Shown piece by piece: positions 4,507 to 26,881 of a stretch of DNA of 64,000 bases (within the stretch, counting starts at the first letter, position 1; every line of letters starts with the position of its first letter). The notes below the pieces were generated by a model that was given only the letters and a program-made list of their open reading frames with translations, ran no database searches and had not been told where the DNA came from. Both the position numbers and the translations under genes were made by a program. The stretch comes from an uncultured Oscillospiraceae bacterium (GTDB lineage: Bacteria; Bacillota; Clostridia; Oscillospirales; Oscillospiraceae): NCBI GenBank assembly GCA_947627735.1, contig CANQXG010000005.1, forward strand, positions 26,846-90,845, read 5' to 3'.

Positions 4507-5603
4507 TGATAAGCATCCGGCATCTGAAAAAGGAATATCCCAACGCCACGCCGCTGCGGGATGTGAACGCCGAGATCGAAAAGGGCGAGGTCATATCCGT
4601 CATCGGCCCCTCCGGCACCGGCAAATCCACCCTGCTGCGGTGCCTCAACCGTATAGAAACGCCCACCGCCGGCCAGATCATCGTGGACGGGACGGACGTG
4701 ACGGCTGCGTCGGCGTCGGAGCTGGCCCGGGTGCGGCGGAAGATGGGCATGGTGTTCCAGTCGTTCAACCTGTTTGCCCACAAGCTGGCGGTGGAGAACG
4801 TCATGATGGCGCCGGTGGACCTGCTGGGCCTGTCCCGGCAGGAGGCCTATGACGAGGCGCTGCGGCTGCTGGATATGGTGGGGCTAAAGGACAAGGCCCT
4901 GAACTATCCCGATGAACTCAGCGGCGGCCAGCGCCAGCGGGTGGCCATCGCCCGGGCACTGGCCATGCGTCTGGAGATCATGCTGTTCGACTAGCCGACC
5001 TCCGCGCTGGACCCCGCCATGGTGGGGGAGGTGCTGGGGGTGATCAAGGGACTGGCCGCCCAGGGCATGACCATGCTCATCGTCACCCATGAGATGCGCT
5101 TCGCCCGCGACGTGTCCACCCGGGTGTTCTATATGGACCAGGGGGAGATATATGAGGACGGCCCGCCCAGCCAGGTGTTCGACGCGCCCCGGCGGGAGCG
5201 GACAAAAGCCTTCATCATGCGCATCCGCGCCTGGGAGCACGCCATCCACAGCCGGGACTTCGACTTCCACGCCATGACCGACTCTCTGGGCATGTTCTGC
5301 ATGCGGCAGGGCATGTCCGCCCGGCAGATGTACGTGGCCCAGCTGGTGGTGGAGGAGCTTGTCATGAACCTGCTGCTGCCGGCGGCGGGGGACCTTCCCG
5401 ACCCGGATATCTGGCTGCGGCTGGACTGCTCCGAGGGCGGCGGGAGCATGAAGCTGGCCGTGGAGTATCCGCGGCTGGGCGGCGAGCCTCTGGCGGCGCT
5501 GGAACGGGACGACCTGACCGGGATGCTGCTGCGCCGGTATGTGACGGACACGGACATCGACCGCGCCGGCCGCCGGGCGGAACTCACCCTCCGCACGGCG
5601 TGA
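4506..5603 (+). pseudogene. Amino-acid ABC transporter ATPase with in-frame amber codon at the Walker B glutamate
   Basis: The reading frame encodes a GlnQ-type ATPase with Walker A GPSGTGKST (residues 34-42), the Q-loop (VFQSFN), the signature LSGGQRQR, and then Walker B MLFD. The next codon, 163, is TAG at 4992-4994 where the family has GAG for the catalytic glutamate of DEPTSALDP. Translation in the same frame continues without further damage: PTSALDP, the H-loop (IVTHEM), and a C-terminal extension of about 120 residues. That extension resembles a GHKL/anti-sigma-type domain ([10 protein letters not shown]). One G-to-T change explains the whole defect. Everything else is intact, so the event is recent, or suppressed, or a sequencing error. 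The neighbouring binding protein/permease gene is whole. Confidence 0.85.
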
Positions 5604-5621
5604 AGATAATCTGAAAAAAGA

Positions 5622-5656
5622 CAAGACCTCCGGCCAAACCGGAGGTCTTGCCTTTG
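5622..5656 (+). terminator. Intrinsic terminator after the ABC transporter
   Basis: A 12-bp perfect stem (5622-5633 with 5639-5650) with a 5-base loop is followed by CCTTTG, a weak T run. The next 170 bases (5657-5824) hold no gene or clear signal that I can see. Confidence 0.75.
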
Positions 5657-5824
5657 CTCCTGCGTGACCATTCCGTGTTCTGGCGGCATTAGGCAGTTCT
5701 CTGTTCTCCATATCCGTCGGGGCTGCCAAAAGCGAAATACCCCGGATGTCAAGGCACTGCCTGTCCTGGACGCTGCTGACGCCCTAATGCCCTGGTCTTG
5801 CTGTATGGGCGGGTTTGAGAACGG

Positions 5825-5874
5825 ACCCCCGTTTTGTGTAGAATGGGACCACTACACGAAACGGGGGTGTTTTT
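5825..5874 (+). promoter_or_regulatory. Long hairpin directly upstream of the recombinase start
   Basis: A 17-bp stem with one G-T pair (5825-5841 with 5852-5868) and a 10-base loop is followed by GTTTTT, and the recombinase ATG comes next at 5875. The run of five G at 5863-5867 is the only ribosome-binding candidate, and it is buried in the stem. The element could therefore act as a terminator with a T run, as a translation gate, or both. It limits expression of the recombinase in either reading. Confidence 0.6.
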
Positions 5875-6714
5875 ATGGGCAAGATCACGGAGGAGCGGAT
5901 CGGGGCGTTTGCCCGGCACATGGGAGAGGACGAGCGGGCGGAGGGCACCGTCGAGGCGTACCTGCGGAGCGTCCGCGGGTTCGCCGCATGGCTGGGCGGT
6001 CGGGAGGTCACTAAGGACTTGGCGGTAGCGTGGAAGGAGCAGCTGCTCACACAGAACTATGCCCCGGCGACGGTGAACGCCAAGCTGGCGGCGGTGAATG
6101 CGTTTTTCAAGTTCTGCGGCTGGCAGGACTGCCGCGTCAAGGCCCTGCGGCTCCAGCGGCGGGCCTTCCGGGACCCGGGCCGGGAGCTGACCAAGGCCGA
6201 GTATGAAAAGCTGGTGACCGCCGCGAAGGACAGCGGAAAATCGCGCCTGGCGCTGCTCATGGAGACCATCTGCGGCACGGGCATCCGGGTGTCGGAAGTG
6301 CGGTACATAACGGTGGAGGCGGCACAGGCCGGTCGGGCGGAGATCGCCCTGAAGGGGAAAATACGGACCATCATGCTGCCGGGGAAGCTGTGCCGGAAGC
6401 TCATAAAATACGCACGGAAAAACAAAATCGCCTCCGGTGAGATCTTCCTCACCAGAAGCGGAAAAGGTCTGAGCCGGCGGCAGATATGGGCGGAGATGAA
6501 GGCGGTTTGCGCGCAGGCGGGCGTGGAGCCGGGGAAGGTGTTTCCCCACAACCTGCGGCACCTGTTCGCCACGGTGTTTTACCGGGCCTGCCGGGACATC
6601 GTGAAGCTGGCGGACGTGCTGGGGCACTCATCCATCAACACGACGCGTATCTACCTCATCACCACCGGCATGGAGCACGCCCGGACCCTGGACCGGCTGG
6701 GATTGGTCAGTTAG
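5875..6714 (+). CDS. Tyrosine recombinase (XerC/D-like), probable DNA invertase
   Basis: This 279-residue protein has an N-terminal SAM-like core-binding domain (about residues 5-90) and a C-terminal catalytic domain. All catalytic residues are present: Arg138 (GTGIRVSE), Lys162, His225 and Arg228 (HNLRH), His251 (GHSSINTT) and nucleophile Tyr260. It should therefore cut and join DNA through a 3-phosphotyrosine link. No phage structural, excisionase or relaxase genes are nearby. The stop codon lies 14 bases before an inverted repeat that encloses a promoter. A role as a local invertase is more likely than a role as a prophage integrase or as the housekeeping Xer protein. Its start is preceded by a long hairpin. 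Confidence 0.9.
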   Translation: MGKITEERIGAFARHMGEDERAEGTVEAYLRSVRGFAAWLGGREVTKDLAVAWKEQLLTQNYAPATVNAKLAAVNAFFKFCGWQDCRVKALRLQRRAFRDPGRELTKAEYEKLVTAAKDSGKSRLALLMETICGTGIRVSEVRYITVEAAQAGRAEIALKGKIRTIMLPGKLCRKLIKYARKNKIASGEIFLTRSGKGLSRRQIWAEMKAVCAQAGVEPGKVFPHNLRHLFATVFYRACRDIVKLADVLGHSSINTTRIYLITTGMEHARTLDRLGLVS

Positions 6715-6764
6715 CGGGTCAACAACGTAATTCTTATTTAGCCTAAAAGATACCACCTTCTGGG

Positions 6765-6793
6765 ATTATACACTACATATAATCTACTTTCAA
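6765..6793 (-). promoter_or_regulatory. Strong sigma-A promoter facing away from the operon
   Basis: Read on the minus strand, TTGAAA (6793-6788) is followed after 17 bases by TATAAT (6770-6765), eleven of twelve consensus positions. It faces the 3' end of the recombinase gene, with no minus-strand gene to serve. A TATAAT also occurs on the plus strand at 6778-6783, but the hexamer 17 bases upstream of it (ACCTTC) has no match to TTGACA. Confidence 0.8.
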
Positions 6794-6846
6794 GAACCAA
6801 ATCATTACACATTAGGAATAATTAAAAACCGGTAAAAAACGATCAG

Positions 6847-6909
6847 GGCACGAAAGCAGGGCCGTCGTAAGAACCTTTTTGCGGCGGCCTTGTTTCTCGT
6901 GCCTTTTTT
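6847..6909 (+). terminator. Hairpin with T6 run inside the invertible segment
   Basis: GGCACGA (6847-6853) pairs with TCGTGCC (6897-6903). Further inner pairing joins GGCCGTCG to CGGCGGCC, and TTTTTT follows at 6904-6909. In the present orientation it would stop read-through from the recombinase gene into the operon. Confidence 0.75.
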
Positions 6910-7022
6910 CTTCCCTTTTGTGTCACCTGGGTCTTTCGACCGCCTCGGAAGAAGAAAGGAAATAAACAAAATAAGAATTTTGTCGCGAATGGCGGCTGTC
7001 GGCCAGAGAGGGGGTCCGGAAC

Positions 7023-9224
7023 ATGCGGGAGATCGTGGACATGCGGCGGCAGGAGCTTCCTGTCATGCGCCGCGGACAGGACCCCGGCTTCCCTATGCGG
7101 CAGGAGGACATCGACCGCTTCCTGGCAGAGCGGAGCGAACAGAGCCACCGCCCCGGCACGACCAGGAGGTACCGCAGCGCGCTCACGATGCTGTACGACT
7201 GGCTGCCGGAGGACAAGCGCATCCGCGAGGGGTCCGTGGACCAATGGCTGAGCGCCCTTGCGGCGGAGGGCTACTCCAATAACACGCTGAACCTGTTTGG
7301 CGCCGTGTGCGATCTTTGGCTGCGATATGTGGGGGCGGAGAGATACCAGCGGACGGAGAGGATCGGACCCGGCGAGACCTCCATCCCCGCCGTGAGCCGG
7401 GAGGAATATCACCGCCTGCTGGAGGCCGCGAAGGAGCTTCGGGACGAGCGGTCCTACCTTCTTATCAAGGTGTTCGCCAATACCGGCGTCACGGCCCGGG
7501 AGCTGTCCCTCCTGACGGCGGACGCCGCCCGCGAGGGCTGCATCCTCTCAGGCAAAAAGACGATCCATCTTCCGGAGGCGCTCCGTAAAGAGCTTTTGAA
7601 CTATGCCGAGTACAACGGGCATCCTGCCGGCGTGATCTTCCGTTCAAAAAACGGCGGGGCGCTACAGGCGGCCTGGATCGCAAGGTGCCTGAAGCATGTG
7701 AGCCAGCAGGCCGGTCTGGCCGGGGGCAAGGGCACGCCTGCCAGTCTGCGGAAGTTATATGGGAACACCATGGCGGCGCTGCCGGATGAGCACGCCCTGG
7801 ATGATCTGCTGGAACAGGAACAGACGTTGTACGGCTGGAAACCGGCCCAGGCGCCGGACTTAGTGCAGGAACAGCCGCCTGCTGTTCCCCTGCCGGAGCC
7901 GGATATCCAGCCCCAGGCCGGGATCACACGGGAGGAATATCTCCGCCTGCTGGACACGGCGAAGCAGCTTGGCCGGGAACAAGCGTATCTTTTGGCGAAG
8001 GTGTTCGCCTCCACGGGCGTGTCCGTATCCGAGCTGCCGGCGCTGACGGTGGAGGCCGTCCGGGCGGGCAGGGTCGCGCTCCCGGACGGGAGCGTCCCAT
8101 TGGCTCCGGGGATGCAAAACGAGCTTTTGTCCTATGCCGCCCGGAAGAACATCCTGTCCGGGCCTGTGTTTGCCACCCGCAGCGGACGGCACCTGGACGT
8201 GCAGCGTGTATCCAATATGCTGCGTCAGCTGGGCGCGGCGGCGGGCCTGGACCCGGGAAAGAGCCGTCCCAAAGCCTTGCGGAAGCTGTATTTGAGTGCC
8301 CGGAGCGAGGCGGAGATGCGTGCCGCCGGCATGGCGGAGCGGCTCATGAATGAGCGGGCGGACGCGGAGCAGGCCGCCTTGTCGGGGCCGCAGGGAGCGG
8401 AGGACACTTCCCTTCCCTCTCCGGACAATGACCCGGGTTTTCTAATGACCCGCGAGGCCATTGAGGGGTACATGGCTGATCTGCGCGCCAAGGGGCGTAT
8501 GCCGGCCTCCCGGCGGTATGGGAGCATCCTGGAGCAACTCTATGAGGACCTGCCGGAGGACAAGCGCATCCGCAGGGGCACCCTGGCCCAGTGGGTGGAG
8601 CTATTGCAGGATAAGGGGTATGCGCCCAATACCATCAACGGCTTTGCCATCGTGGCGAACGGTTTTCTGGATCATGCGGGCCACCGGGAGTGCCAGCTCT
8701 CCAGCCTGCCCAAGCTGGCGGATATCCCCCAGCCGGAGCTGACCCGGAGCGAATACCTGCAGCTGCTGCAGGCGGCGAAGCGGCTGGACCGGGAGCGGGA
8801 ATATCTGCTGGTGAGGCTGTTCGCGTCCTGCGACCTGCCGGTACAGGAGCTGGACAAGGTGACGGTGGCGGCGGCAAGAGCCGGGAGCATGACGGTCGAT
8901 TCCAGCGGCACACGCAGCGTGCTCCATCTACCTGGGAGCCTGTGCCGGGAGCTTTTGGCCTACGCGGAGCGGCAGGGCATCGGCACGGGACCCATCTTTG
9001 TGTCGAACCGGGACAGGGCCATGAGCCGCGCCGCCGTGGTGCAGTCCATCGCGAAGCTGAGTGACGAGGCGGGGCTGCCCGGCGAGAAGTGCAATCCCCA
9101 GTGCCTGCGGCGGCTGTATAAGACCACCCGAGCGGCGGTGGAGGCCAGCTTCGCGGTCCTGGTGGAGCAGACCATGGACCGGCAGGCGGAGCAGGAACAG
9201 CTCGCCGCCGGCTGGGGAGCGTAA
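7023..9224 (+). CDS. Array of three catalytically dead tyrosine-recombinase modules
   Basis: This protein of 733 residues has no known full-length counterpart that I can name. It consists of repeated recombinase-like modules. Residues about 20-110 are a core-binding domain and 120-270 a catalytic-like domain. Residues about 290-440 are a second catalytic-like domain alone. Residues about 465-570 and 575-733 are a third pair. The first catalytic Arg is replaced by Thr, Ser and Pro in the three modules. The His of HxLR is replaced by Ala, Lys and Gln, while the following LR is kept. The final His and Tyr are absent. The module ends share an acidic-Gln stretch and a Gly-Trp pair. A 24-base stretch coding LPEDKRIR is identical in modules 1 and 3, so duplication was fairly recent. 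The likely role is DNA binding without cleavage. The first gene of the operon, it starts at ATG behind a GAGGGGG site. Confidence 0.8.
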   Translation: MREIVDMRRQELPVMRRGQDPGFPMRQEDIDRFLAERSEQSHRPGTTRRYRSALTMLYDWLPEDKRIREGSVDQWLSALAAEGYSNNTLNLFGAVCDLWLRYVGAERYQRTERIGPGETSIPAVSREEYHRLLEAAKELRDERSYLLIKVFANTGVTARELSLLTADAAREGCILSGKKTIHLPEALRKELLNYAEYNGHPAGVIFRSKNGGALQAAWIARCLKHVSQQAGLAGGKGTPASLRKLYGNTMAALPDEHALDDLLEQEQTLYGWKPAQAPDLVQEQPPAVPLPEPDIQPQAGITREEYLRLLDTAKQLGREQAYLLAKVFASTGVSVSELPALTVEAVRAGRVALPDGSVPLAPGMQNELLSYAARKNILSGPVFATRSGRHLDVQRVSNMLRQLGAAAGLDPGKSRPKALRKLYLSARSEAEMRAAGMAERLMNERADAEQAALSGPQGAEDTSLPSPDNDPGFLMTREAIEGYMADLRAKGRMPASRRYGSILEQLYEDLPEDKRIRRGTLAQWVELLQDKGYAPNTINGFAIVANGFLDHAGHRECQLSSLPKLADIPQPELTRSEYLQLLQAAKRLDREREYLLVRLFASCDLPVQELDKVTVAAARAGSMTVDSSGTRSVLHLPGSLCRELLAYAERQGIGTGPIFVSNRDRAMSRAAVVQSIAKLSDEAGLPGEKCNPQCLRRLYKTTRAAVEASFAVLVEQTMDRQAEQEQLAAGWGA

Positions 9225-9226
9225 GG

Positions 9227-10000
9227 ATGCAGGACATGCCTCAGGGCCTCGGCTTTCAGATGGGGCGGTCGGATATCGAGGACTGTGTCGGGCGGCTGAA
9301 AGCGGACCTCAGCCCCAGTACGGTCGCCCGGTATCGCAGGGCGCTGCTGGCCTTTTACGACGCCCTGCCGGCGGACAAGCGGGTCCGGGAGGACACGCTG
9401 GCCAACTGGGTTGAGAGCATCGCGGACCGGTACTCCGCCGCCCACGTGAACATGCTCACCAGTGCTTGCAACGCCTTTTTGCGCTACAGAGGCTATGAGA
9501 GCTATCAGCTCACCCGCTATATCGGGAAACAGGAGCCGTCCCAAACGGCGCTCACCCGGGAGGAATACCTGCGTCTGGTAGCTACGGCGCGGGCGATGGG
9601 AAAGCCCCTGGCCTATCTGGCCATGCGGGCCTTTGCCTGCACGGACATGGAGATGGCGGACTTCCTGGCCCTGACGGTGGAGGCGGTGCGGGATGGGACC
9701 ACCGCTGTCCGCCTGCCGGACAGCCTGCGGGGGGAGCTTTTGGAGTATGCCCTGCACAATGGCGTCCGCGGCGGGCGTATATTCGTGGGCCGGGGCGGAG
9801 AGCCGCTGCGGGCGGAAACCGTGCGGCTGCACATCAAGGCGGTGAGCAAGGCGACAGGGTTCGGGGCCGGCAAGGCCTGCGTCCGCACGTTGCGGAAGCT
9901 GTACGAGCAGACCCGGGCGGAGATAACAGCGCAGACTGTGGAGCGGCTGATGATAGAACGAGCAGAGCAGGAGCAGACGGAGCATGGGTGGGAGAGCTGA
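9227..10000 (+). CDS. Catalytically dead tyrosine-recombinase-like protein (fourth module)
   Basis: This 257-residue protein is a stand-alone version of the modules in the gene just upstream, which ends two bases earlier. It has a core-binding domain (SPSTVARYRRALLAFYDAL, then LPADKRVRED) and a catalytic-like domain. The first Arg is replaced by Glu (CTDMEMAD). HxLR reads RTLR, and the closing His and Tyr are missing. The C-terminus ends with the same acidic-Gln plus Gly-Trp pattern as the upstream modules. It should bind DNA but not recombine it. Its stop codon TGA is followed immediately by the ATG of the first glycosyltransferase, so it is translated with the polymer operon. A regulatory role on the invertible segment or on operon transcription is inferred from position only. 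Confidence 0.78.
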   Translation: MQDMPQGLGFQMGRSDIEDCVGRLKADLSPSTVARYRRALLAFYDALPADKRVREDTLANWVESIADRYSAAHVNMLTSACNAFLRYRGYESYQLTRYIGKQEPSQTALTREEYLRLVATARAMGKPLAYLAMRAFACTDMEMADFLALTVEAVRDGTTAVRLPDSLRGELLEYALHNGVRGGRIFVGRGGEPLRAETVRLHIKAVSKATGFGAGKACVRTLRKLYEQTRAEITAQTVERLMIERAEQEQTEHGWES

Positions 10001-11098
10001 ATGAGGCGTATATGCTGTCTGTGCGAGAGCTGGACGACCGGCGGGATCGAGTCGTTCCTCTGCAGCGTACTCATGCAGCTGGACATGGCAGAGCTGGAAG
10101 TGGACATCGTGGCGGCCCGGCTGGACGACAGCGTGTTCACGGACAAGCTAAAGGCTCGCGGCATTCGATTCTATGAGCTGTCCGGCAGCGTGCGCCGGGT
10201 GTCTGAAAACCGCCGGCGGTTCCGCGCGCTCCTGGGGGAGCGGCGGTATGATGTGCTGCACCTGAATGCCTTCCAGGGCCTGTCCCTGGCCTATCTTCGC
10301 ATCGCAAAGGAGGCGGGCGTGCCGGCGCGCATCGCCCACAGCCACAACGTGGCTCTGCGCAAGAGCCTGACCCGGCCATTGAAGCTTGCGATACATAACT
10401 GGGCGAAGGAGCGGTATACGAAGGACGCCACGGCCCTGTGGGCATGCTCCAAGGATGCGGCGGCGTTTTTATTCTCTGCCAAGGTGCTGGATGAACGGGG
10501 CTATCAGTTTGTCCCCAATGGGATAGATGTGGAGCGATTCCGGCTCGACCCGGCGGCGCGGGAAGAAGTGCGCCGGGAGCTGGGGCTGGACGGAAAGTTC
10601 GTCATCGGCCACGTGGGGCGGCTGTGCTACCAGAAGAACCAGAGCTTCCTGCTGGACGTGCTGGCGGAGGCGGTAAAGGTGCAGCCGGAGGCTGTTCTGC
10701 TGCTGGTGGGCGAGGGCGAGGACCAGCCCATGCTGGTGGAAAAGGCCCGGCATCTGGGCATTGCGGACAGAGTGCTTTTTGCGGGTACTTCGGACCGGAT
10801 AGAGAGGCTCTACTGGGCCATGGACGTGTTCGCGTTTCCCAGCCTCTTTGAGGGCTTTGGCATCGCGGTGATCGAGGCCCGTGCGGCGGGGCTGGCGGTG
10901 GTGTGCTCGGAGCATGTGCCGGAAGAGGCACGCATCGCCGGGTGCGCGGCGCTGCCGCTGGAGGCGGTCACCTGGGCGGAAGAGATAACGGAGGCCCGTG
11001 ACCGGGCGACAGAGGGTGCGGACGTGGTGCGGGATGCCGGATTCGATATCGCGCAGGTGGCGGAACAGATCAGTACAGATTATAAAGCACCGTTATGA
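10001..11098 (+). CDS. Glycosyltransferase family 4 (GT-B fold)
   Basis: This 365-residue protein has the two-domain layout of GT4 retaining enzymes. The N-terminal acceptor domain has the glycine-rich GGIESF loop at about residues 14-19. The C-terminal nucleotide-sugar domain has IGHVGRLCYQKN (about residues 195-206), the VGEGED loop, and the signature E-G-F-G-I-A-V-I-E-A near residues 286-295. It transfers a sugar from a nucleotide donor onto a lipid- or polymer-linked acceptor at the cytoplasmic face of the membrane. The donor and acceptor are not determined. The ATG follows the preceding stop with no gap, so translation is coupled. Confidence 0.9.
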   Translation: MRRICCLCESWTTGGIESFLCSVLMQLDMAELEVDIVAARLDDSVFTDKLKARGIRFYELSGSVRRVSENRRRFRALLGERRYDVLHLNAFQGLSLAYLRIAKEAGVPARIAHSHNVALRKSLTRPLKLAIHNWAKERYTKDATALWACSKDAAAFLFSAKVLDERGYQFVPNGIDVERFRLDPAAREEVRRELGLDGKFVIGHVGRLCYQKNQSFLLDVLAEAVKVQPEAVLLLVGEGEDQPMLVEKARHLGIADRVLFAGTSDRIERLYWAMDVFAFPSLFEGFGIAVIEARAAGLAVVCSEHVPEEARIAGCAALPLEAVTWAEEITEARDRATEGADVVRDAGFDIAQVAEQISTDYKAPL

Positions 11099-11108
11099 GA
11101 GAACAAGT

Positions 11109-11657
11109 ATGTCGACATCGGAGCATCTGAAAAAGGTCAAGCGCCAGCTGTATAAAAACCTCATCTCCGCCCACAAGGGCTGGTGGCAGTGGCACAAGGT
11201 CGTCAAAGCGGATGGTGTGGGGGGGAACACGGCCGTCATCCTCCTGCCCGGCTGCGACCGGGAGATCAACCACATGGCGCTGCTGTACCTGGACGAGATG
11301 CTCAAAAGCCGGCAATACAAAAACGCCGTGCTCCTGACCCACGACCTGGCAGTGAAAAAGTGCGCGGGCCTGTTCTCACAAAATATCCTGCGTGTGGTGG
11401 ACTTCAGCCGGAAGAAAGCGGAGCACCTGATGCAGTTTTACTGCCTGTATGAGTTCGACAAGCGGTTCATCTGTGCCAGCCTGGACGAACCCAATGGGCG
11501 CAACGGCTCGGCGCTCATAGGCAAGAAGGGCACCACCGTGGAGGAGATCTTCGTCATCGGGGTATACCGGATGTATCCGTTCACGCGGCCGGAGGCGCCG
11601 AAGTACGGTGGAGACGACCCGGATATAAAGAACTTTTTGGAGGACCGGCCTCAATGA
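11109..11657 (+). CDS. Uncharacterised protein of the glycopolymer operon
   Basis: I do not recognise the family. The protein has 182 residues, is soluble, and shows no signal peptide or membrane segment. Its N-terminus is basic (HLKKVKRQLYKNLISAHKGW). A Rossmann-like stretch (GGNTAVILLPGCDREINH) follows at about residues 38-55 and could begin a nucleotide- or sugar-binding fold. The ATG at 11109 is chosen over an upstream in-frame ATG because that one lies deep inside the previous gene. GAGAGAAC precedes it. Its stop overlaps the next start as ATGA, which ties it to the nucleotidyltransferase-kinase that follows. Confidence 0.6.
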   Translation: MSTSEHLKKVKRQLYKNLISAHKGWWQWHKVVKADGVGGNTAVILLPGCDREINHMALLYLDEMLKSRQYKNAVLLTHDLAVKKCAGLFSQNILRVVDFSRKKAEHLMQFYCLYEFDKRFICASLDEPNGRNGSALIGKKGTTVEEIFVIGVYRMYPFTRPEAPKYGGDDPDIKNFLEDRPQ

Positions 11658-13159
11658 ATCCAAAATATATCGTAGTGCAGGCGGGGGGCAAGGGCACGCG
11701 CCTGGGCCACCTGACGAGGAATAAGCCCAAGGCCCTGGTGCCCGTCGACAACCTGCCCATGCTGTTCCACCTGTTCCGCAAGTACCCGGAGAGCCGGTAC
11801 ATCGTCATCGGGGACTACAGGTGCGATGTGCTGGAGCGGTATCTGGCGGCCTTTGCCGATGTGGAGTATGAGGTGGTGTGTGCCAGCGGTAGCACGGGCA
11901 CATGCGCCGGCGTGCGGGCGGCCATGGACAGACTGCCGGCGGACACGCCCTTTATGCTCATCTGGTCGGACCTGATCCTGCCCAAGGACTTCGATTTGCC
12001 GGAAGAGGTGGGCAATTACATCGGCGTGGCGAAGGACTTCCCCTGCCGGTGGAAGTATGAGAATGGCGCGTTCCAGGAGGAACGGAGCAGTGAGTTCGGC
12101 GTGGCGGGGCTGTTCTATTTCAGGGACAAGGGCCTGTTATCCAAAGTTCCCGAATCGGGCGAGCTGGTGCGGTGGCTGTCCGGGACGGGAACGCAGTTTG
12201 ACAGCCTGCCCCTGTATCGGGTGAAGGAGTACGGGCTGCTGTCCGAATACGAAAAGCTGGACACGGCTAAGTGCCGGCCCTTTAACCGGACGTACATAGA
12301 AGACGGTCTGTTCGTGAAGGAACCCATAGATGCCCAGGGAGAGGGCCTGGCCAGGCGGGAGCGGGCCTGGTACCGGGCGGTGCAGGACCAGCACTTTGAG
12401 AATATCCCCAGGATCGCCTGCTACGAGCCTCTGAAGATGGAGCGCATCGACGGCAAGGCCATCTACGAGTACGAGGGCCTATCCCATGCGGAGAAGGAGA
12501 ACATCCTGCGGCAGGTCATCGGGTGCCTGAAGTCCGTCCAGGCTCTTGCGTCCGTCCCGGCGGACCGGGTCAGCTTTGACGACGCCTACATCGGCAAGAC
12601 GTTCCAGCGGCTGGAGAAGGTTCAGGAGCTGGTACCCTTCGCCAAGGACGAGTATGTGACCGTGAACGGGCGGAAGTGCCGGAACGTGTTTTGGCGCCGG
12701 GAGGAATTGGAGAAGCAGATCGCGGGATATTTCCCGCCGGAGTTCAGGCTCATTCATGGGGACTGCACCTTCTCCAATACGATGCTGCGCTCGGATGGCC
12801 GCCCGGTGCTCATAGACCCCCGGGGGTATTTCGGTCACACAGAGCTGTACGGCGACCCGGCCTACGACTGGGCCAAGCTCTATTACTCCGTGGTGGGCAA
12901 CTATGACCAGTTCAACCGCAAGCGGTTCGACCTGACTATCGGGGAACGGGACGTGACCCTCACCATCCGGTCCAACGGCTGGGAGGACATGGAGGGCGAG
13001 TTCTTCCGTCTGCTGGACGGAGAGGTGACGCCGGAGCAGGTGAAGCTGCTGCACGCTATCATCTGGCTGAGCCTGACCACCTACGCCTGGGAGGACTACG
13101 ACTCCATCTGCGGGGCGTTTTACAACGGACTATATCACTTAGAGGAAGCAATGGGATGA
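11654..13159 (+). CDS. Bifunctional nucleotidyltransferase and choline-kinase-like phosphotransferase
   Basis: Residues 1 to about 225 form a sugar-phosphate or alcohol-phosphate nucleotidyltransferase with the signature GGKGTRLG-x7-KPKAL and the metal-binding WSDLIL. Residues about 235-500 form an aminoglycoside/choline-kinase-type phosphotransferase with the catalytic loop HGDCTFSN and the metal-binding IDPRG. The pair would phosphorylate a small alcohol or sugar and then activate it as an NDP derivative, as LicA and LicC do for phosphocholine in separate proteins. The actual substrate is open; choline, ethanolamine, glycerol and sugars are all possible. It overlaps both neighbours by four bases, so it belongs to the operon core. 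Its product probably decorates or extends the surface polymer. Confidence 0.82.
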   Translation: MNPKYIVVQAGGKGTRLGHLTRNKPKALVPVDNLPMLFHLFRKYPESRYIVIGDYRCDVLERYLAAFADVEYEVVCASGSTGTCAGVRAAMDRLPADTPFMLIWSDLILPKDFDLPEEVGNYIGVAKDFPCRWKYENGAFQEERSSEFGVAGLFYFRDKGLLSKVPESGELVRWLSGTGTQFDSLPLYRVKEYGLLSEYEKLDTAKCRPFNRTYIEDGLFVKEPIDAQGEGLARRERAWYRAVQDQHFENIPRIACYEPLKMERIDGKAIYEYEGLSHAEKENILRQVIGCLKSVQALASVPADRVSFDDAYIGKTFQRLEKVQELVPFAKDEYVTVNGRKCRNVFWRREELEKQIAGYFPPEFRLIHGDCTFSNTMLRSDGRPVLIDPRGYFGHTELYGDPAYDWAKLYYSVVGNYDQFNRKRFDLTIGERDVTLTIRSNGWEDMEGEFFRLLDGEVTPEQVKLLHAIIWLSLTTYAWEDYDSICGAFYNGLYHLEEAMG

Positions 13160-13740
13160 AGACATATTTCAAGGGCGTACTGAAAACGATACAGCGCGCG
13201 GTGGAGTCGCTGGACGGGGACATATTCGAGCAGCTGGTGGACGAGTGCCGGCAGGTCATAGAAAGCGGGCACAAAGTGATCGTCAGCGGGCTGGGGAAGA
13301 ACGTGCCGGTGTGCGACAAGTTCGTGGGGACCATGAATTCCCTGGGGCTGCCGGCCTGCTTTATGAACACCAACAGCGCGGTCCATGGTGACCTAGGTCT
13401 GGTGAAACCGGGGGACCTGGTGATCGTGCTGACGAAGAGCGGTGAAACCATAGAGTCCGTGTACCTGACGAACCTTCTCAAGAAGCGCCGCGCGGACATA
13501 TGGCTGCTGACGTTCCGGCGGGAGAGCACATTGACCAGGGAGATCCCAAAGCACATCATCCTGGACCTGGAGCACGAGGGGGACCCCTGGGACATCGTGC
13601 CCAACAACTCCACCACGGTGAACCTGATCATCCTGCAGGGGCTGGCCATCACGCTGGCGGAGCGGATGGGCGTTCAGCTTCACGACTTCAAGGAGAACCA
13701 CCCCGGCGGGTACATAGGGGAGCAGCTCAAAAATGAGTGA
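13156..13740 (+). CDS. SIS-domain sugar-phosphate isomerase (KdsD/KpsF-like)
   Basis: This 194-residue single SIS domain has the glycine-rich VSGLGKN loop and the segment NTNSAVHGDLGLV. It also has LTKSGET for phosphate binding and a closing NHPGGYIG. These match arabinose-5-phosphate isomerases of the KpsF/KdsD type, which interconvert ribulose-5-phosphate and arabinose-5-phosphate. The CBS domains usual in KdsD are absent, as in capsule-locus versions. The host looks Gram-positive, so Kdo synthesis for LPS is unlikely. A 5-carbon sugar phosphate or alditol for the polymer is more plausible. It overlaps the genes on both sides by 4 and 8 bases. Confidence 0.8.
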   Translation: MKTYFKGVLKTIQRAVESLDGDIFEQLVDECRQVIESGHKVIVSGLGKNVPVCDKFVGTMNSLGLPACFMNTNSAVHGDLGLVKPGDLVIVLTKSGETIESVYLTNLLKKRRADIWLLTFRRESTLTREIPKHIILDLEHEGDPWDIVPNNSTTVNLIILQGLAITLAERMGVQLHDFKENHPGGYIGEQLKNE

Positions 13741-14110
13741 GGTCATAACAGTTTCGCCCCTGGGGAAGACCTGGGTGCTGGACCTGGACGGGACCGTGGT
13801 GAAGCACAACGGCTACAAGCTGGACGGCCATGACACCCTGCTGCCGGGGGCGAAGGACTTCCTCACCCATATCCCGCCGGAGGACATGGTGGTTTTCATC
13901 ACGTCCAGGACGGAGGAGCAGCGGGCCATGACGGAGGCGTTTCTAAAAGAGAACGGCATACGCTATGACGCCATCATCTACGGTGCGCCCTACGGGGAGC
14001 GGATACTGGTGAACGACCGCAAGCCTTCGGGCCTGGCCACGGCCATAACGGTGAATACGGACCGGGACGTGTTCATGGACGCGGTATTCAAAGTTGATGA
14101 GCGGCTGTAA
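13733..14110 (+). CDS. Small HAD-family phosphatase
   Basis: This protein of 125 residues has the HAD motif I DLDGT at about residues 17-21, motif II in FITSRTEEQR (Thr/Ser after the second strand), and an acidic closing motif in LVNDRKPSG. It has no cap domain, which points to a phosphatase of small-molecule or sugar phosphates with an open active site. Placed between the SIS isomerase and the glycosyltransferases, it likely removes a phosphate in precursor synthesis for the polymer. Its start overlaps the upstream gene by 8 bases, and its end overlaps the next start. Confidence 0.8.
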   Translation: MSEVITVSPLGKTWVLDLDGTVVKHNGYKLDGHDTLLPGAKDFLTHIPPEDMVVFITSRTEEQRAMTEAFLKENGIRYDAIIYGAPYGERILVNDRKPSGLATAITVNTDRDVFMDAVFKVDERL

Positions 14111-15131
14111 GGACTGGCTCCGAGCGGTCAAGGGGCGGCTGAAGCGGCTGCCGCTGATCGTGATACCGGCGGTGTTCGTGCTCCGCATCCTCCGGGGCTG
14201 GCGCGCCTACCGGCACATATTGCGGGCCTGTCCGCCGGAGGAGGGCTGGCGGGTCTGGTTCATGGACTATGACGGCTCCGGCGACACCTATCTGACCTGC
14301 GGTTATCTTCAGTCAAGAGGACTACTGGGGCCAAAGGACGCCTTCGCGGGTTCCGAGGGTCCGTCTATGAAGATCGCCAAACTCTTTGGGTTCGGTCGCT
14401 ATATTGCTGTGAGGCCAAAGGCTGCGCTGGACGTGCGGCTGATGGAGCGGTTTTACGGTCGGCGGCTGGAACTTCTGCCGCTGCTGTATGAGTCGGACCA
14501 TTTGGAGCATTCAGGAGTCATGCGCCATATGGCGGGCGTTCATGGTATCGACTTCATGACCATGTTGAAGATCGGCCTGGAGGCCAACTGCGGCGTACCG
14601 TACAGGGAGGGCCTCTGGACCCAGCCGTCGTTCCCTTACGATGAGGGAGAGATAGAGGCGATATTTGAAGAGCACAAGCTTATCCCCGGCAGGACAGTCC
14701 TGCTGGCGCCCTATGCGGGGAAGAGCGAGATGTGGGGCGTCCCGGTGGCATTTTACGCAAGGCTTGCGGACGAGCTTCATGCGGCAGGCTTCTGCGTATG
14801 TACCAATACAAGCGGCGGGGAAAAAGAGCCGCCGGTGCCCGGGACGAGACCGCTGCTGGTACCCTACCGGCTGGTGCGGCCCTTCTGTGAGCGGGCCGGG
14901 ATATTCATCGGCCTGCGGAGCGGATTGTGTGACATCATCTCCGGCGCAAGGTGCCGCAAGGTCGTATTGTACTCCGACAAGTTCAAGACGGGCGGCCCCT
15001 GTACATGGCTGGATTTTTTCTCGCTGGAGAAAATGGGCCTGTGCAGGGCCGTGACGGAATCATATATCGACGGCCGAGGCAGCGACCAGGCTGCGTCGGA
15101 GATCATACAAAGACTGTTTACAGACCAATAA
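14097..15131 (+). CDS. GT9-like glycosyltransferase (first paralogue)
   Basis: This 344-residue protein has a hydrophobic N-terminal segment (about residues 18-33) that may tether it to the membrane. The C-terminal half resembles the donor half of heptosyltransferase-type GT-B enzymes. It has VLLAPYAGKSE, a helix with LADELHAAGF, VCTNTSGGEKE, then FIGLRSGLCDIISGARC and KVVLYSDK. The next gene shows the same order of motifs, so the two are paralogues. Function as a glycosyltransferase is likely but the donor is unknown. ATG 14097 is chosen; a TTG lies one codon upstream, and translation is probably coupled to the HAD gene, whose stop is at 14110. Confidence 0.6.
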   Translation: MSGCKDWLRAVKGRLKRLPLIVIPAVFVLRILRGWRAYRHILRACPPEEGWRVWFMDYDGSGDTYLTCGYLQSRGLLGPKDAFAGSEGPSMKIAKLFGFGRYIAVRPKAALDVRLMERFYGRRLELLPLLYESDHLEHSGVMRHMAGVHGIDFMTMLKIGLEANCGVPYREGLWTQPSFPYDEGEIEAIFEEHKLIPGRTVLLAPYAGKSEMWGVPVAFYARLADELHAAGFCVCTNTSGGEKEPPVPGTRPLLVPYRLVRPFCERAGIFIGLRSGLCDIISGARCRKVVLYSDKFKTGGPCTWLDFFSLEKMGLCRAVTESYIDGRGSDQAASEIIQRLFTDQ

Positions 15132-15149
15132 GAGAGAAGTGGAAAAGAA

Positions 15150-16139
15150 ATGAAGAAGGAACCATTGAAGGCGGCGAAGATCGAGCCAAAGACCATAGAC
15201 CAGTATTACAGCTACTACAGCTATATCTGCGGTAAGTGCAAAAAAGGACAGTATAACCTCTTTCTGCACCGGCATCTGGGGGATTCTCTGGTCCTGCTGG
15301 GCCTTAAGGATATTTTTGAGGAGAAGTATCAGGCACCCATACATTACCTGATCCAAGAAAACCAGGAAGTACTGGCCCAAATGTACGGGGTGACGAACTA
15401 TACCACAGTAGACTTCTCAACGCTCATGGATGAGCCGCATCTGGACTGGGAGTTTACACCGCTTGAGATCGATAAATACAGGGAGAACCTCTGTGAACGG
15501 ATATTCCCGTCTGTCCCGCAGCTGGACATGCCCTTTATCGCGTCGCCTGCCGCGTGGGTCAAGGAGAGGCTGGGCTGGGATAATTTTGTGGATGGCTGGG
15601 CAAAGATGCTTGGCCTGGAGGCGGAGAAGCTCCCGGTGCCAAAGAACATACCTGAACTGTCGGATGAACTCTCCGGAAAGCTGGAGGCCATTGGCGCTTT
15701 GGACAAGATCGTCCTGCTGGCGCCGGAGGCGCAGTCATTTATGTTCGCGGACAGCTCCTTCTGGCCGAAATTGGCCCGCAGACTTCAAAAGCAAGGCTAT
15801 ATCGTCGTTACAAATGCGGTGAACGACGCGAACGCGATCGAGGGGACACATAACCTGAAAATGAGCGTATCCGATCTGATCGCTTTGGGCTATCGGTGCC
15901 ATTCGATCCACTCGCTCAGAAGCGGGCTGTGTGATTGCCTCGTGGGAAGGCAGGATGCGCTGACGGTGTACTATACGCCGGAGATGTTTTACAAGTATCT
16001 GTCCCTCAACGCCTGTTTCGAATTGGACAGGCAGGTCAATGAGGTGACCGTTTCGACAGTTGCCAAAGAGATCAGGCACCCTTTTGCGGCGTTAAAAAAG
16101 CTGAATAAGCTGGAAGCAAAAAAAAAATCAGGCAGCTGA
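15150..16139 (+). CDS. GT9-like glycosyltransferase (second paralogue), ends at a ten-A run
   Basis: This 329-residue protein is related to the gene before it. It has an LHRHLGDSLVLLG opening typical of heptosyltransferase-like folds, then VLLAPEAQS, GYIVVTNAVND, and HSLRSGLCDCLVG near the C-terminus. No signal peptide or membrane segment is seen. GAGAGAAGTGG precedes the ATG. The last codons are Ala-Lys-Lys-Lys-Ser-Gly-Ser-stop, where the three lysines come from a run of ten A at 16118-16127. A one-base slip in this run joins this frame to the WavE-like frame that follows. Codon use is less GC-biased than in flanking housekeeping genes, which suggests transfer of this part of the locus. Confidence 0.6.
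   Translation: MKKEPLKAAKIEPKTIDQYYSYYSYICGKCKKGQYNLFLHRHLGDSLVLLGLKDIFEEKYQAPIHYLIQENQEVLAQMYGVTNYTTVDFSTLMDEPHLDWEFTPLEIDKYRENLCERIFPSVPQLDMPFIASPAAWVKERLGWDNFVDGWAKMLGLEAEKLPVPKNIPELSDELSGKLEAIGALDKIVLLAPEAQSFMFADSSFWPKLARRLQKQGYIVVTNAVNDANAIEGTHNLKMSVSDLIALGYRCHSIHSLRSGLCDCLVGRQDALTVYYTPEMFYKYLSLNACFELDRQVNEVTVSTVAKEIRHPFAALKKLNKLEAKKKSGS
16118..16127 (+). repeat. Homopolymer A10 at the junction of two glycosyltransferase genes
   Basis: Ten consecutive A sit at the end of the GT9-like gene. The downstream frame is open from the codon after TAA 16106, through the run, into the WavE-like protein. Adding one A, or a -1 ribosomal shift, fuses the two proteins in frame. The run is striking in a GC-rich genome. 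Confidence 0.75.
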
Positions 16140-16192
16140 CTTATCTGCCGATCGACAAGCCCATCACGATAAGCGGTGATGAGATATCGGTC

Positions 16193-17236
16193 GTGGTCCA
16201 GGGCGCCGTGGGGGGAGAGGCCGCGCGAAAATGTCTGAACAGCATCAGGAAGCACCTGCCGGGGGCGGAGATCATCCTCTCTACCTGGCAGGGTTCGGAT
16301 ATCACCGGGCTGGATTATGATGTTTTGGTGTTGAGCAAGGACCCCGGGGCCAAGTATTTCAATACAGGCTATTCCGTTTTGAACAACGGAAACCGTCAGA
16401 TCGTGTCCAGCAGCGCCGGAATGAAAAAGGCGACGCGGAAATACATCTTGAGATTCAGAACGGACTTCGTTTTGGAGAGCAACGAATTCCTCCGGTACTG
16501 GGATGCGTATCCAAAGCGCCGCGCAGAGTACGCGCTGTTCTCCCACCGGGTGCTCGCGGATGTGCTCTTCTCCCGGTTCTGCGCTCACACCACCGGCATA
16601 CCGACGCCGTTTCATATATCTGACTTTTGGATGTTTGGCCTGGCTGACGACGTGAAGGAGTACTATTGCAGCGCACCGATCCTTAAAGAAAACGAGCTGG
16701 GTGAATACGATTTCGTCCATCCGGAGCGCGTCCCGTACCCGGATATGACGTTTAAGTTTCCATTGGAACAACATTTTTGCTATTCCTATGTAAAGTCAAA
16801 AATACCGGAACTTGAACTCAGAGATTGGTCGGACTGGAACAGCACGAATATCGATCTGGCAAATAATATCATCTTCAATAATTTTGTCCTTTTGTCGCAT
16901 GATCAGAGCGGCATTTGGTCGGATAAGCACGCCTGGTCGATCCTGACGGAAGATTATGTGCACGGCATCATCAACCACTACTATTTCCAGGACAGATATA
17001 AATTCTACTGTGACCCGTCCTATACGCCCAGGAGACTGAGGAAAACGGATGAGAATCCTTTTGCCGATATGCTGAGGGTGCTCAGAGAGCCTGTGAAGTT
17101 CCTGTATCGCTGCGCCCGCCGGGTATACGATTGGGCGAGAGCGGTGGTCAGCCTGCTGTACCGCGCTATAAAAAAGAAAACGCTGGCCATCCTGCGCAGC
17201 GTCGGACACAAAAGTGTGTTAAAGACTCCGGAATAG
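16193..17236 (+). CDS. WavE-family glycosyltransferase-like protein
   Basis: The protein matches the WavE family, named after a Vibrio LPS core gene and later found in many polysaccharide loci. It shows VVQGAVGGEAA, CLNSIRKHLPGAEIILSTW, a GSD in the next turn, LVLSKDPG, and the metal-site-like LRFRTDF. The annotated GTG at 16193 falls inside the first beta-strand (ISVVVQG). The true N-terminus must lie upstream, where the frame is open back to 16109 with no ATG, GTG or TTG and no ribosome site. The upstream codons (LTYLPIDKPITISGDEISV) look like genuine protein. The gene is therefore likely expressed as a frameshift fusion with the preceding GT9-like gene through the A10 run, or from a rare start. 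The C-terminal 60 residues are basic and may contact the membrane. Confidence 0.7.
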   Translation: MVQGAVGGEAARKCLNSIRKHLPGAEIILSTWQGSDITGLDYDVLVLSKDPGAKYFNTGYSVLNNGNRQIVSSSAGMKKATRKYILRFRTDFVLESNEFLRYWDAYPKRRAEYALFSHRVLADVLFSRFCAHTTGIPTPFHISDFWMFGLADDVKEYYCSAPILKENELGEYDFVHPERVPYPDMTFKFPLEQHFCYSYVKSKIPELELRDWSDWNSTNIDLANNIIFNNFVLLSHDQSGIWSDKHAWSILTEDYVHGIINHYYFQDRYKFYCDPSYTPRRLRKTDENPFADMLRVLREPVKFLYRCARRVYDWARAVVSLLYRAIKKKTLAILRSVGHKSVLKTPE

Positions 17237-17303
17237 TGTTATCTGCTCACGAAAGAAAAAACAGACGCCGAAATTACTGTATGTTGCGGGAGAAAACGCT
17301 GAT

Positions 17304-18071
17304 ATGCTGAAAAAACTAAAGCAAAATCAGTTTCTGTTTACCGAGCTGGTGAAGCGGGATTTTAAGCAGAAGTATAAGCGAACGCTGCTGGGGATGGGCT
17401 GGAGCATTCTTTCTCCGCTGCTCCAGCTTTTGGTGATGACCGTCGTCTTTACCCGGTTCTTCGGCCAGAACACGCCGCACTATATGATCTTTATCTTTTG
17501 CGGCACCCTGGTCTTTTCCTTCTTCATCGAAGCGACGAATGGCGGCATGGAGACCATCATGGGAAACGCGGGGATCTTCACCAAGGTCAATGTGCCGAAG
17601 TATTTGTTTTTATTATCCCGAAATATCCAATCGCTCATCAACTTTGGGCTGATACTTATCGTGTTTTTCATCTTTGTCGCGTTTGACGGCATCGCGTTCA
17701 CATGGAAGTTTATATGTTTGCTGTACCCGATCTGCTGTCTGATCCTGTTCAATATCGGCGTCGGCATGATCCTTTCCGCGCTCTTTGTGTTCTTCAGGGA
17801 CACGCAATATCTTTACGGTATATTTACCCAGCTCCTTGGATATATGTCGGCTGTCTTTTACAGCATCGATGTGTACAGCGTCAAAGTCCAGTATGCGTTC
17901 CTGCTGAACCCGATATATCTCTTTATTCGGTATTTCAGAAAGATCGTCCTGGACGCCACGATCCCGACGGTCTGGTTCCACCTGCTGATGGCGGCGGATG
18001 TGGTCATCGTCCTGGGGCTTGGCTGCTGGATCTATAAGAAATATAATACCAAGTTTCTGTACTATGTATAG
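17304..18071 (+). CDS. ABC-2 type polysaccharide/teichoic-acid export permease (TagG-like)
   Basis: This 255-residue permease has about six membrane segments and the typical opening of the family (LVKRDFKQKYKRTLLGMGWSIL). The central NVPKYLFLLSRNIQSLINFGL and the closing LLNPIYLFIRYFRKIVLD match TagG, Wzm and RfbA exporters. It forms the channel that moves a finished lipid-linked glycan across the membrane. The ATPase partner starts 13 bases after its stop. It follows a 67-base gap, the longest in the operon, in which I see no terminator or strong promoter. GGGAGAAAAC precedes the ATG. Confidence 0.93.
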   Translation: MLKKLKQNQFLFTELVKRDFKQKYKRTLLGMGWSILSPLLQLLVMTVVFTRFFGQNTPHYMIFIFCGTLVFSFFIEATNGGMETIMGNAGIFTKVNVPKYLFLLSRNIQSLINFGLILIVFFIFVAFDGIAFTWKFICLLYPICCLILFNIGVGMILSALFVFFRDTQYLYGIFTQLLGYMSAVFYSIDVYSVKVQYAFLLNPIYLFIRYFRKIVLDATIPTVWFHLLMAADVVIVLGLGCWIYKKYNTKFLYYV

Positions 18072-18083
18072 CGGGGGCGTTAT

Positions 18084-18926
18084 ATGAGCATTTTGGAAGT
18101 CAACAACGTTTCCATCCGTTATATCACCGGGGATTTCCGGGACATTGGCTTTAAGGAGTATATCCTGCGCCGGATAACAAGGAACTATCACGTACAGGAA
18201 TTTTGGGCGGACAGGCATATCTCTTTCTCCCTGGAAGAGGGAGAGATGCTTGGCATCATCGGGAGCAACGGAGCGGGAAAATCAACTCTTCTCAAAGTCG
18301 TGTCCGGCATCATGGAACCTACGGAGGGGTACGTGAGGCGGAAGGGGAACATCGCGGCGCTTTTGGAGCTGGGCAGCGGCTTTGACGGCGATCTGACCGT
18401 AAAAGAAAACACCTATCTGCGGGGGGCCATGCTTGGGTATACCCGCAAATTCATGGATGAGACCTATGAGAAGATCATTGAATTTGCGGAGCTTGAGGAA
18501 TTTCAGGACAGGCCGTTCAAACAGCTTTCCTCCGGCATGAAATCCCGCTTGGCGTTCTCTATAGCGTCCCTGGTCCAGCCGGATATCCTGATACTGGATG
18601 AAGTCCTCTCCGTGGGCGACGGCGCCTTCTGTAAAAAGAGCGAGGCAAAGATGCTGGAGATCATCAACGGCGGGGCGACAACGATCCTGGTGTCGCACTC
18701 TCTCGGGCAGGTGCGGGAGCTGTGCACAAAGGTCCTGTGGCTGGAGAGAGGAGAACAGATCGCCGTAGGTGACAAGGAAATGATATGCGATCTCTACCAA
18801 CAGTATTTGGATAAGACGATCACGCTGGAGGAAGCCCGGGAAAAGCTGAACAGCCGGTCGGTAGGAACGACCGGCTTGGAAGAACGAACAGGAAATGACA
18901 AACAGGAAGATAGACATACATCTTAG
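18084..18926 (+). CDS. Polysaccharide/teichoic-acid export ATPase (TagH/Wzt-like)
   Basis: This 280-residue ATPase has Walker A GSNGAGKST (about residues 61-69), signature LSSGMKSR, Walker B ILILDE and H-loop SHS. The N-terminal segment EVNNVSIRY-x-TGDFRDIGFKEY, with an insert before Walker A, is typical of TagH/Wzt proteins that power glycan export. The C-terminal carbohydrate-binding domain of some Wzt proteins is missing, so chain-end recognition is not expected. It works with the permease just upstream. Its 3' end overlaps the next gene by 32 bases. Confidence 0.93.
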   Translation: MSILEVNNVSIRYITGDFRDIGFKEYILRRITRNYHVQEFWADRHISFSLEEGEMLGIIGSNGAGKSTLLKVVSGIMEPTEGYVRRKGNIAALLELGSGFDGDLTVKENTYLRGAMLGYTRKFMDETYEKIIEFAELEEFQDRPFKQLSSGMKSRLAFSIASLVQPDILILDEVLSVGDGAFCKKSEAKMLEIINGGATTILVSHSLGQVRELCTKVLWLERGEQIAVGDKEMICDLYQQYLDKTITLEEAREKLNSRSVGTTGLEERTGNDKQEDRHTS

Positions 18927-19743
18927 CGGACATTCAGGCTGTGAGATAACTATCATCGGGACGCCGGAGCATCTGCTTGTGAAAAAGAAGTCGTCGGAGC
19001 AAAGCTATAACCAGCGCCTGTATAACCAGTACTTACGGCAAAAAAACTACACATCAACAATCTTTCGCTGTGCCAATGTCTATCAGTATTCGGAGGACGC
19101 CGACGGTCGCACATACTTTACCATGGATTACATCAACGGCAAGACGGTGGCGGAGGAGATGCGCACGATCGAACTGTACAGGGTCCCGCTCCTGGGCGAT
19201 AAATTCGCGGCGCTGCTTCCGGATGCGGTCGTGCCAAATCCAGGTGCGGATAACGTATTCAAAAACAAGATAGCGATACTGGCCGGGAAGATATGCGGAA
19301 AAGGGTCCCGCGCGAAGCAGGCTCTTGAGGAACTGAAAAGTTTTGATTGGAGCGCCGCGTCTGGATCGCCCTGCCACGGCGATCTGACGCTGGAGAATAT
19401 GATCCTCAGGAACGGCGAGATATATCTGATAGATTTTCTGGATTCCTTTTATGACAGCTGGGCCATCGACCTGGCGAAGATACTGCAGGATGCGGACCTG
19501 CACTGGCATTACCGGTATGAGGGCGATCTGGAGAACAATCTGAAGATACGCCTCCACTGTCTGAAGGATTCCATCGTCGGCGCCATATTGGCCCATGACG
19601 ATGGAGAGAGATTATACAGCACCGTGTACCACGTACTTCTCCTGAATGTACTTCGCATCATACCGTACTGCCGGGATGAGATCACAGAGGAATGGATCGA
19701 AAGACAGATCGATCACGTTCTGAAAATAATTAAGAATCGATAA
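18895..19743 (+). CDS. APH/choline-kinase-like phosphotransferase
   Basis: This 282-residue protein has the kinase catalytic loop CHGDLTLENMIL, whose Asp is the catalytic base, and the metal-binding IDFLDS about 15 residues later, as in aminoglycoside and choline kinases. The N-lobe is short. It should phosphorylate a small hydroxyl compound such as an amino-alcohol, glycerol or sugar for polymer assembly. The following gene encodes a nucleotidyltransferase, so kinase and transferase together resemble the fused protein at 11654-13159. The start overlaps the ATPase gene by 32 bases, and weak AGGAA precedes it. Confidence 0.75.
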   Translation: MTNRKIDIHLSGHSGCEITIIGTPEHLLVKKKSSEQSYNQRLYNQYLRQKNYTSTIFRCANVYQYSEDADGRTYFTMDYINGKTVAEEMRTIELYRVPLLGDKFAALLPDAVVPNPGADNVFKNKIAILAGKICGKGSRAKQALEELKSFDWSAASGSPCHGDLTLENMILRNGEIYLIDFLDSFYDSWAIDLAKILQDADLHWHYRYEGDLENNLKIRLHCLKDSIVGAILAHDDGERLYSTVYHVLLLNVLRIIPYCRDEITEEWIERQIDHVLKIIKNR

Positions 19744-19755
19744 GGAGACCTGCCT

Positions 19756-20820: not shown

Positions 20821-20853
20821 TAGAAAGATCTAAAAAACTATTGGGAGGAAAAT

Positions 20854-21888: not shown

Positions 21889-21934
21889 GGGGTTTGGGTG
21901 AACGGAACTTTTTGGGAGCATGGAAGGACGAGGC

Positions 21935-26879: not shown

Positions 26880-26881
26880 AT

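Follow-up and report, generated by a model that had tools for sequence, protein, structure and literature searches.

A 251-bp segment of DNA lying between a tyrosine recombinase gene and a long run of likely surface-polymer genes in an uncultured Oscillospiraceae bacterium raises the question of whether this segment is a switch that the recombinase turns over, and of how such a switch would be held in one state or the other. The stretch analysed here (the window) is 64,000 nucleotides long and belongs to a 2.36-Mb, 86%-complete host assembly, which is a MAG consensus.

Layout of the locus

The segment at 6729-6979 is bounded by a perfect inverted repeat, AATTCTTATTT, whose two copies (6729-6739 and 6969-6979) are complementary at 11 of 11 bases and are separated by 229 nt. 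The left copy begins 14 bases past the recombinase stop codon at 6714, and the 11-mer is unique to these two places in the assembly. The recombinase gene is complete, with all catalytic residues present (R138, K162, H225, R228, H251 and Y260). Within the segment, a near-consensus promoter on the minus strand matches 11 of 12 consensus positions; it is aimed away from the operon, which makes the assembled orientation OFF, and since its -10 element is 25 bases from the left repeat, a flip would set it about 25 bases from the right one. On the plus strand, a hairpin followed by a T run folds at approximately 6845-6905 with an energy of -44.5 kcal/mol (z = -8.5). A simple terminator scan did not flag this central hairpin (6845-6909), probably because of a bulge. 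All of these elements are as the original prediction had described them.

Two of its statements needed amendment. The promoter was said to serve no gene; it is real, but its antisense aim at the recombinase gene had been overlooked. The "22.7-kb surface-polymer operon" (7023-29748) does contain likely polymer genes, but its length is an upper bound, because 7023-10000 is dead recombinase-like and 25404-29748, beyond a 237-nt gap, holds genes for an AMP-binding enzyme and a TRAP-type transporter. A single transcript covering 7023-29748 is putative. The positions of all features are collected in Table 1.

Table 1. Features of the switch locus, numbered from the first base of the window
Feature	Position	Strand	Basis
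Promoter-like site of recombinase gene, TTGAGA-N18-TAGAAT	5815-5844	+	Consensus scan only, 10/12
17-bp dyad, from recombinase -10 region to just 5' of start codon	5825-5868		94% complementary; possible operator or read-through hairpin
Active tyrosine recombinase, 279 aa	5875-6714	+	Pfam PF00589, 2.2e-25; catalytic residues intact
Antisense intrinsic terminator within recombinase gene	6429-6460	-	Terminator scan, conservation, covariation
Predicted OFF-state antisense RNA, ~330 nt	6429-6758	-	Deduced from where promoter and terminator lie; start placed 7 nt past -10
Left recombination site, AACGTAAT-TCTT-ATTTAGCC	6724-6743	+	Repeat search, site alignment, arms-only search
Invertible promoter TTGAAA-N17-TATAAT, OFF orientation	6765-6793	-	Scan; relatives' segments carry promoters both ways
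Strong hairpin and T run, predicted stop for recombinase read-through	6845-6909	+	Folding of plus strand only
Right recombination site, GACAAAAT-TCTT-ATTTTGTT (minus-strand reading)	6965-6984	-	Repeat search, site alignment, arms-only search
733-aa protein, three recombinase-like units, all catalytically dead	7023-9224	+	Units at about residues 25-285, 299-450 and 469-731
Fourth dead recombinase-like unit, 257 aa	9227-10000	+	Pfam, residue alignment
Likely surface-polymer genes	10001-25166	+	GT4 and WavE glycosyltransferases, SIS sugar-phosphate isomerase, nucleotidyltransferase/kinase, ABC polymer exporter pair, epimerase, MBOAT acyltransferase

Dyads were also seen at the matching upstream position in some of the 30 recombinase loci shown, and as they occur at only some of them a general operator upstream of the recombinase was rejected. 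In a few relatives the upstream dyad pairs with the ribosome site, which it would hide in read-through transcripts. One operon protein of 574 aa (21920-23644), encoded next to the MBOAT acyltransferase, resembles in its C-terminal part the first 30 positions of the ILEI (interleukin-like EMT inducer) domain. An Rfam search of 5400-10100 gave just two matches, both sub-threshold and implausible.

Recombination sites and orientation in related loci

Relatives of the recombinase were fetched from the genus and from named genomes, giving 142 recombinase ORFs with His-Arg and Tyr motifs; 20 of the loci were picked around matches of a search with the dead proteins. Enough downstream DNA was available at 134 loci, and after six duplicate fetches were dropped 128 unique loci remained, the window included. 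Each was searched for an inverted repeat scoring at least 11 between the first 60 bases past the stop codon and a place 150 to 700 bases on. A paired repeat was found at 101 of the 128 loci, compared to 7 of 670 dinucleotide shuffles, with a median repeat-to-repeat span of 281 bp. Taken at a single locus, such a repeat is suggestive, being an event of about 1% in the shuffled 715-bp region (7/670); its recurrence in the same place at 101 of 128 loci settles the observation.

Alignment of the repeats resolved a site made up of an 8-bp arm, a 4-bp spacer (in 83 of 101 loci) and an inverted 8-bp arm, with a consensus like GACAAAAT-N4-ATTTTGTC. The 11-bp repeat of the window is the core of two such sites, both with the spacer TCTT, and the arms of the left site are weak. 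When the arms alone were used as the query, both sites were present at 116 of 125 loci, and the spacers at these loci were of 58 different kinds. Within a locus the two spacers were identical in 108 of the 116 cases, against an expected mean of 3.6 and a maximum of 10 in 2000 permutations of the right sites among loci, and this match is what strand exchange requiring identical spacers would be expected to leave. L033, a sister locus elsewhere in this genome, has the spacer AAAG against TCTT in the window, so the two loci should not recombine with each other. Contigs ended within 400 bp of a recombinase gene 14 times downstream and 9 times upstream, as counted by eye.

The recombinase of L033 is 92% identical to that of the window and its switch was called ON; it precedes NeuB, cytidylyltransferase and polysialyltransferase-like genes, a sialic-acid-type set. 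The last dead unit of L033 is 95% identical to the window protein encoded at 9227-10000, and its array is split over three ORFs. Three MAGs (G013, G033 and G030) each contain up to 14 matches to the window recombinase, some of them partial, and several of these copies lie at switch-like sites with spacers of their own, suggesting a bank of independent surface switches.

Comparison of the 101 inner segments with each other, counting alignments of at least 80 bp, gave 41 pairs in reversed and 89 in the same direction, the reversed pairs being up to 99.6% identical. Reversed matches were found between two species of the genus (L039 and L043; 236 bp, 93.6%), between two loci of one genome (L093 and L098; 260 bp, 90.8%), between L045 and L126 (217 bp, 84.8%), and between L083 and L084 (243 bp, 99.6%), where there is also a 73-bp match in the same direction and the L083 contig stops at the right end of the segment. 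Both orientations thus occur in related genomes, the comparison by which the original prediction was to be checked, and among the 101 loci no reversed match to the window's own segment was found. On the basis of their promoters, 73 loci were called OFF, 21 ON and 7 unclear (72, 21 and 8 by a cruder rule). The consensus sequences therefore show a marked OFF bias in assembled orientation (73 versus 21).

An inverton is recognized by inverted repeats on either side of a promoter close to a recombinase gene, by an intact recombinase, and by both orientations in homologous loci; all three were found, the last among relatives. Promoter inversion by the adjacent recombinase, as proposed originally, is strongly upheld by the paired sites with locus-matched spacers, by the two orientations among relatives, and by published read-level flipping in Clostridia. 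Flipping of this exact segment is predicted, as is variable expression of the polymer.

An antisense terminator and a family of dead recombinases

The switch stood as first proposed, but the proposal had missed two parts: a terminator lying antisense within the recombinase gene, and the dead recombinases encoded by the leading genes of the operon. The OFF promoter faces the recombinase gene, whose stop codon is 50 bases past the -10 element, and the simple scan flagged no terminator in between. The antisense hairpin of the window has 13 pairs followed by ATTTTGTTTTT, and its 3' end is 285 nt from the stop codon. An antisense terminator anywhere in the gene was present in 104 of 138 recombinase genes and in 14% of 414 codon shuffles, and 80 of those in the genes share one 50-nt bin. 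Among recombinases at least 60% identical to that of the window (class A; n = 88, window included), the terminator lies about 285 nt from the stop codon in 81. None of the 50 genes outside this class (44-52% identity) has one at that distance; ten have terminators 36-40 nt from the stop codon, six have them near 652 nt, and in 30 none was flagged.

In 80 of the 81 aligned sequences (L148, in which the register is shifted, was excluded), 96.4% of cells in the 13-pair stem are paired and 5 of the 13 pairs change on both sides, values not reached in any of 500 shuffles, though relatedness inflates such counts. In the 85 of 88 class A proteins that match the motif, valine in [AV]SGE is found only with N or D in TR[SND]G (12/12) and never with serine (0/53). 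The antisense RNA predicted for 41 class A loci in the OFF state is 330-412 nt long (median 353). With the class A terminator 285 nt inside the gene, this transcript would cover the box II and tyrosine codons; the terminators at 36-40 or 652 nt, or their absence, outside class A indicate that some switches do without a long antisense overlap. That the hairpin serves to terminate the OFF transcript is secure. The RNA so formed may, in addition, silence the recombinase in the OFF state.

The first two genes behind the switch encode four recombinase-like units. All four lack Arg-I, both His (box-II and second) and the Tyr while keeping the box-II Arg, which is not the residue set of an active recombinase. 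None of 89 aligned units of the family keeps the box-II His, the second His or the Tyr (the 89 include fragments and repeat fetches, and gaps were scored as absent), and a few units from outside the window keep Arg-I. The dead set had been cleared of four fragments that came from true recombinases (one each from L163 and L154, two from L141), and one L155 match was kept in the 89 and excluded from later counts of dead units. Where the tyrosine region would be, the dead units instead have a long terminal helix, which in most of them carries an EQL-x-x-GW tail. One unit was modelled with AlphaFold2 (mean pLDDT 88.5, pTM 0.61), and the model resembles the Xer, lambda and Tn1549 recombinases (query TM 0.4-0.66, best E 9e-9). 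The dead paralogs form one clade with an SH-aLRT of 99, in a quick tree with some long branches, and they are under purifying selection, with a median dN/dS of 0.26 (222 pairs of 60 sequences) versus 0.21 for active recombinases. Their distances follow those of the partner recombinases (r = 0.84 in class A, 0.47 in the other type and 0.53 overall), in a comparison of 28 hand-picked pairs to which shared ancestry contributes.

A dead paralog was found at 44 of the 114 loci with at least 1.2 kb downstream, a share that is inflated because 20 loci were chosen around dead-protein matches; 26 lie directly after the switch, 18 lie within 6 kb, and none is on the opposite strand. Outside the genus, 11 dead genes among the matches listed reach the last residues of the profile. 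Two of these carry an in-frame stop, and four have no active recombinase within the approximately 8-11 kb examined per side, which rules out that dead paralogs always accompany an active recombinase. We consider the dead paralogs to be, on balance, regulators rather than debris.

Among these four lone dead genes is that of locus L213, which is preceded at 45 bp by a core-like site and followed by a gene for a 1323-aa secreted protein; the locus is possibly what is left of a switch, or a switch operated in trans. A second type of switch (L034, L039, L042-L044, L046-L052 and similar loci) precedes genes for surface proteins with signal peptides, with the dead recombinase 3-5 kb on. At L034, a locus of this type B, a gene for a large secreted protein lies between the switch and the dead recombinase; this was the one surface protein scanned, and it has weak choline-binding-type repeats.

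Control of the proposed switch: readings compared

Taken together, we hold with considerable confidence that the 251-bp segment comprises the promoter and recombination sites of a phase switch, that the neighbouring recombinase is likely what flips it, and that in the OFF state the promoter points away from the likely polymer genes and into the recombinase gene, where it would make an antisense RNA of about 330 nt that is ended by the conserved hairpin. Strand exchange by the recombinase within the TCTT spacers would invert the segment. In the ON state the promoter would then drive the dead paralogs followed by the polymer genes, and in the OFF state it would drive the short antisense RNA over the catalytic codons of the recombinase, while the central hairpin would insulate the operon from recombinase read-through. 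Among the steps of which we are least sure are that the antisense RNA would lower recombinase levels in the OFF state, that the dead paralogs would bind the recombinase or its sites in the ON state, and that each state would in this way slow its own reversal. The resulting two-sided latch, in which the OFF antisense RNA silences the recombinase, dead copies in the ON state sit on the sites or interfere with the synapse, and the dead copies may let paralogous switches of one cell influence each other, is put forward as a tentative and rather doubtful extension.

A simpler reading, for which we would allow slightly less than an even chance, is a plain on/off inverton whose antisense terminator merely stops OFF run-on transcription through the recombinase gene and whose dead paralogs are ordinary regulators or have no function in the switch. 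There is little room between the promoter and the recombinase stop codon, so such a terminator would have to sit inside the gene. The subfamilies place theirs variously at about 36-40, 285 or 652 nt, with none flagged in 30 of the 50 genes outside class A, and many switches lack dead paralogs just as some dead paralogs stand alone, all of which suits a plain inverton. It accounts less readily for the position of the class A terminator, far enough inside the gene that the transcript would cover the box II and tyrosine codons, and for dead paralogs whose modelled fold is still recombinase-like and whose divergence parallels that of their partner recombinases.

Two other explanations fare much worse. 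Conservation of the hairpin could reflect protein constraint alone, as the motif encoded there, K-N/Q-K-I/T-A-S-G-E-I-F-L-T-R-S-G, is itself conserved. Codon shuffles that keep the protein nevertheless mostly lose the hairpin, the stem shows compensatory changes, and the frequency of antisense terminators, 1.04 per kb in active genes, is close to the level of shuffles in dead paralog genes (0.23 versus 0.18 per kb); XerD genes, for which there is no shuffle baseline, have any such terminator in 4 of 15 cases. We consider this explanation very unlikely. Equally improbable, if not slightly more so, is that the recombinase is a relic of a mobile element beside a segment that no longer flips and is fixed in orientation. 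The weak arms of the left site, the lack of a reverse copy for the window locus and the reliance on a MAG consensus would fit a relic, but the active recombinases are under purifying selection (median dN/dS 0.21 over 3032 pairs) and all 142 of the ORFs retain Arg-I (their His, Arg and Tyr motifs are there by construction, the ORFs having been selected on them). The spacers, moreover, are matched within loci, and relatives are found in both orientations.

Relation to known invertible promoters

Invertons of this kind have already been reported from gut Clostridia. Inverton group 139, of which 32 of 33 members are from Clostridia, was tied to a group of tyrosine recombinases (invertase group 35) in a defined gut community (Microbiome 2025, PMC11892184). 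Its examples include Intestinimonas butyriciproducens and Clostridium sp. D5, with read-level shifts of orientation in culture, and the two printed examples span 255 and 257 bp by their coordinates (PMC11892184). Another strain of I. butyriciproducens (L132) has a recombinase 71% identical to that of the window, with the sites present. The window locus shares with group 139 a tyrosine-type recombinase near the inverton, a host among the Clostridia and a similar span, and very likely belongs to the same kind, as a candidate member of the group. It differs in its dead paralogs and antisense terminator, neither of which is mentioned in the description of group 139 as far as that was available (PMC11892184).

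Among the matches listed, the titles and opening lines of abstracts mentioned neither dead recombinase paralogs in switched operons nor an antisense terminator in a recombinase gene, and the antisense hairpin and dead-recombinase leader appear to be new. Invertible promoters of gut Clostridia have so far been known mainly as repeats that flip in sequencing reads. The loci described here add separable candidate parts for their control, namely an antisense RNA that depends on orientation and whose terminator, lying within the recombinase gene, is under selection, and a family of conserved dead recombinases that the switched operon encodes. The mostly locus-specific spacers suggest that one genome could run many switches without cross-recombination. 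If the latch were true, it would amount to a compact rule governing how fast surface polymers and proteins phase-vary in bacteria.

In the fimS switch of E. coli, which is acted on by FimB and FimE, the orientation of the switch controls fimE. The window locus resembles fimS, where an invertible promoter segment of about 300 bp lies beside tyrosine recombinase genes and its orientation feeds back on a recombinase gene. Unlike fimS, it has a single adjacent recombinase, whose gene faces an antisense promoter and itself contains a conserved intrinsic terminator. From the geometry of this promoter and terminator only, FimE-type orientation feedback on the window recombinase would be predicted.

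The capsule loci of Bacteroides have promoters flipped by Mpi, with the leader regulators UpxY (a NusG-like antiterminator) and UpxZ encoded first in the operon. They likewise place a surface-polysaccharide operon with regulators as its first genes behind an invertible promoter, but the leader genes of the window encode tyrosine recombinases that are dead, and the active recombinase is a local one instead of a global one. These first genes are not of the NusG-like UpxY/UpxZ type; they match Pfam integrase families and, in the one unit modelled, are recombinases by fold. Closer by host are the RecV switches of Clostridioides difficile, where a tyrosine recombinase likewise inverts DNA ahead of surface genes in a member of the Clostridia. 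RecV has several targets at a distance, whereas each recombinase described here is found at its own site, mostly with a spacer of its own.
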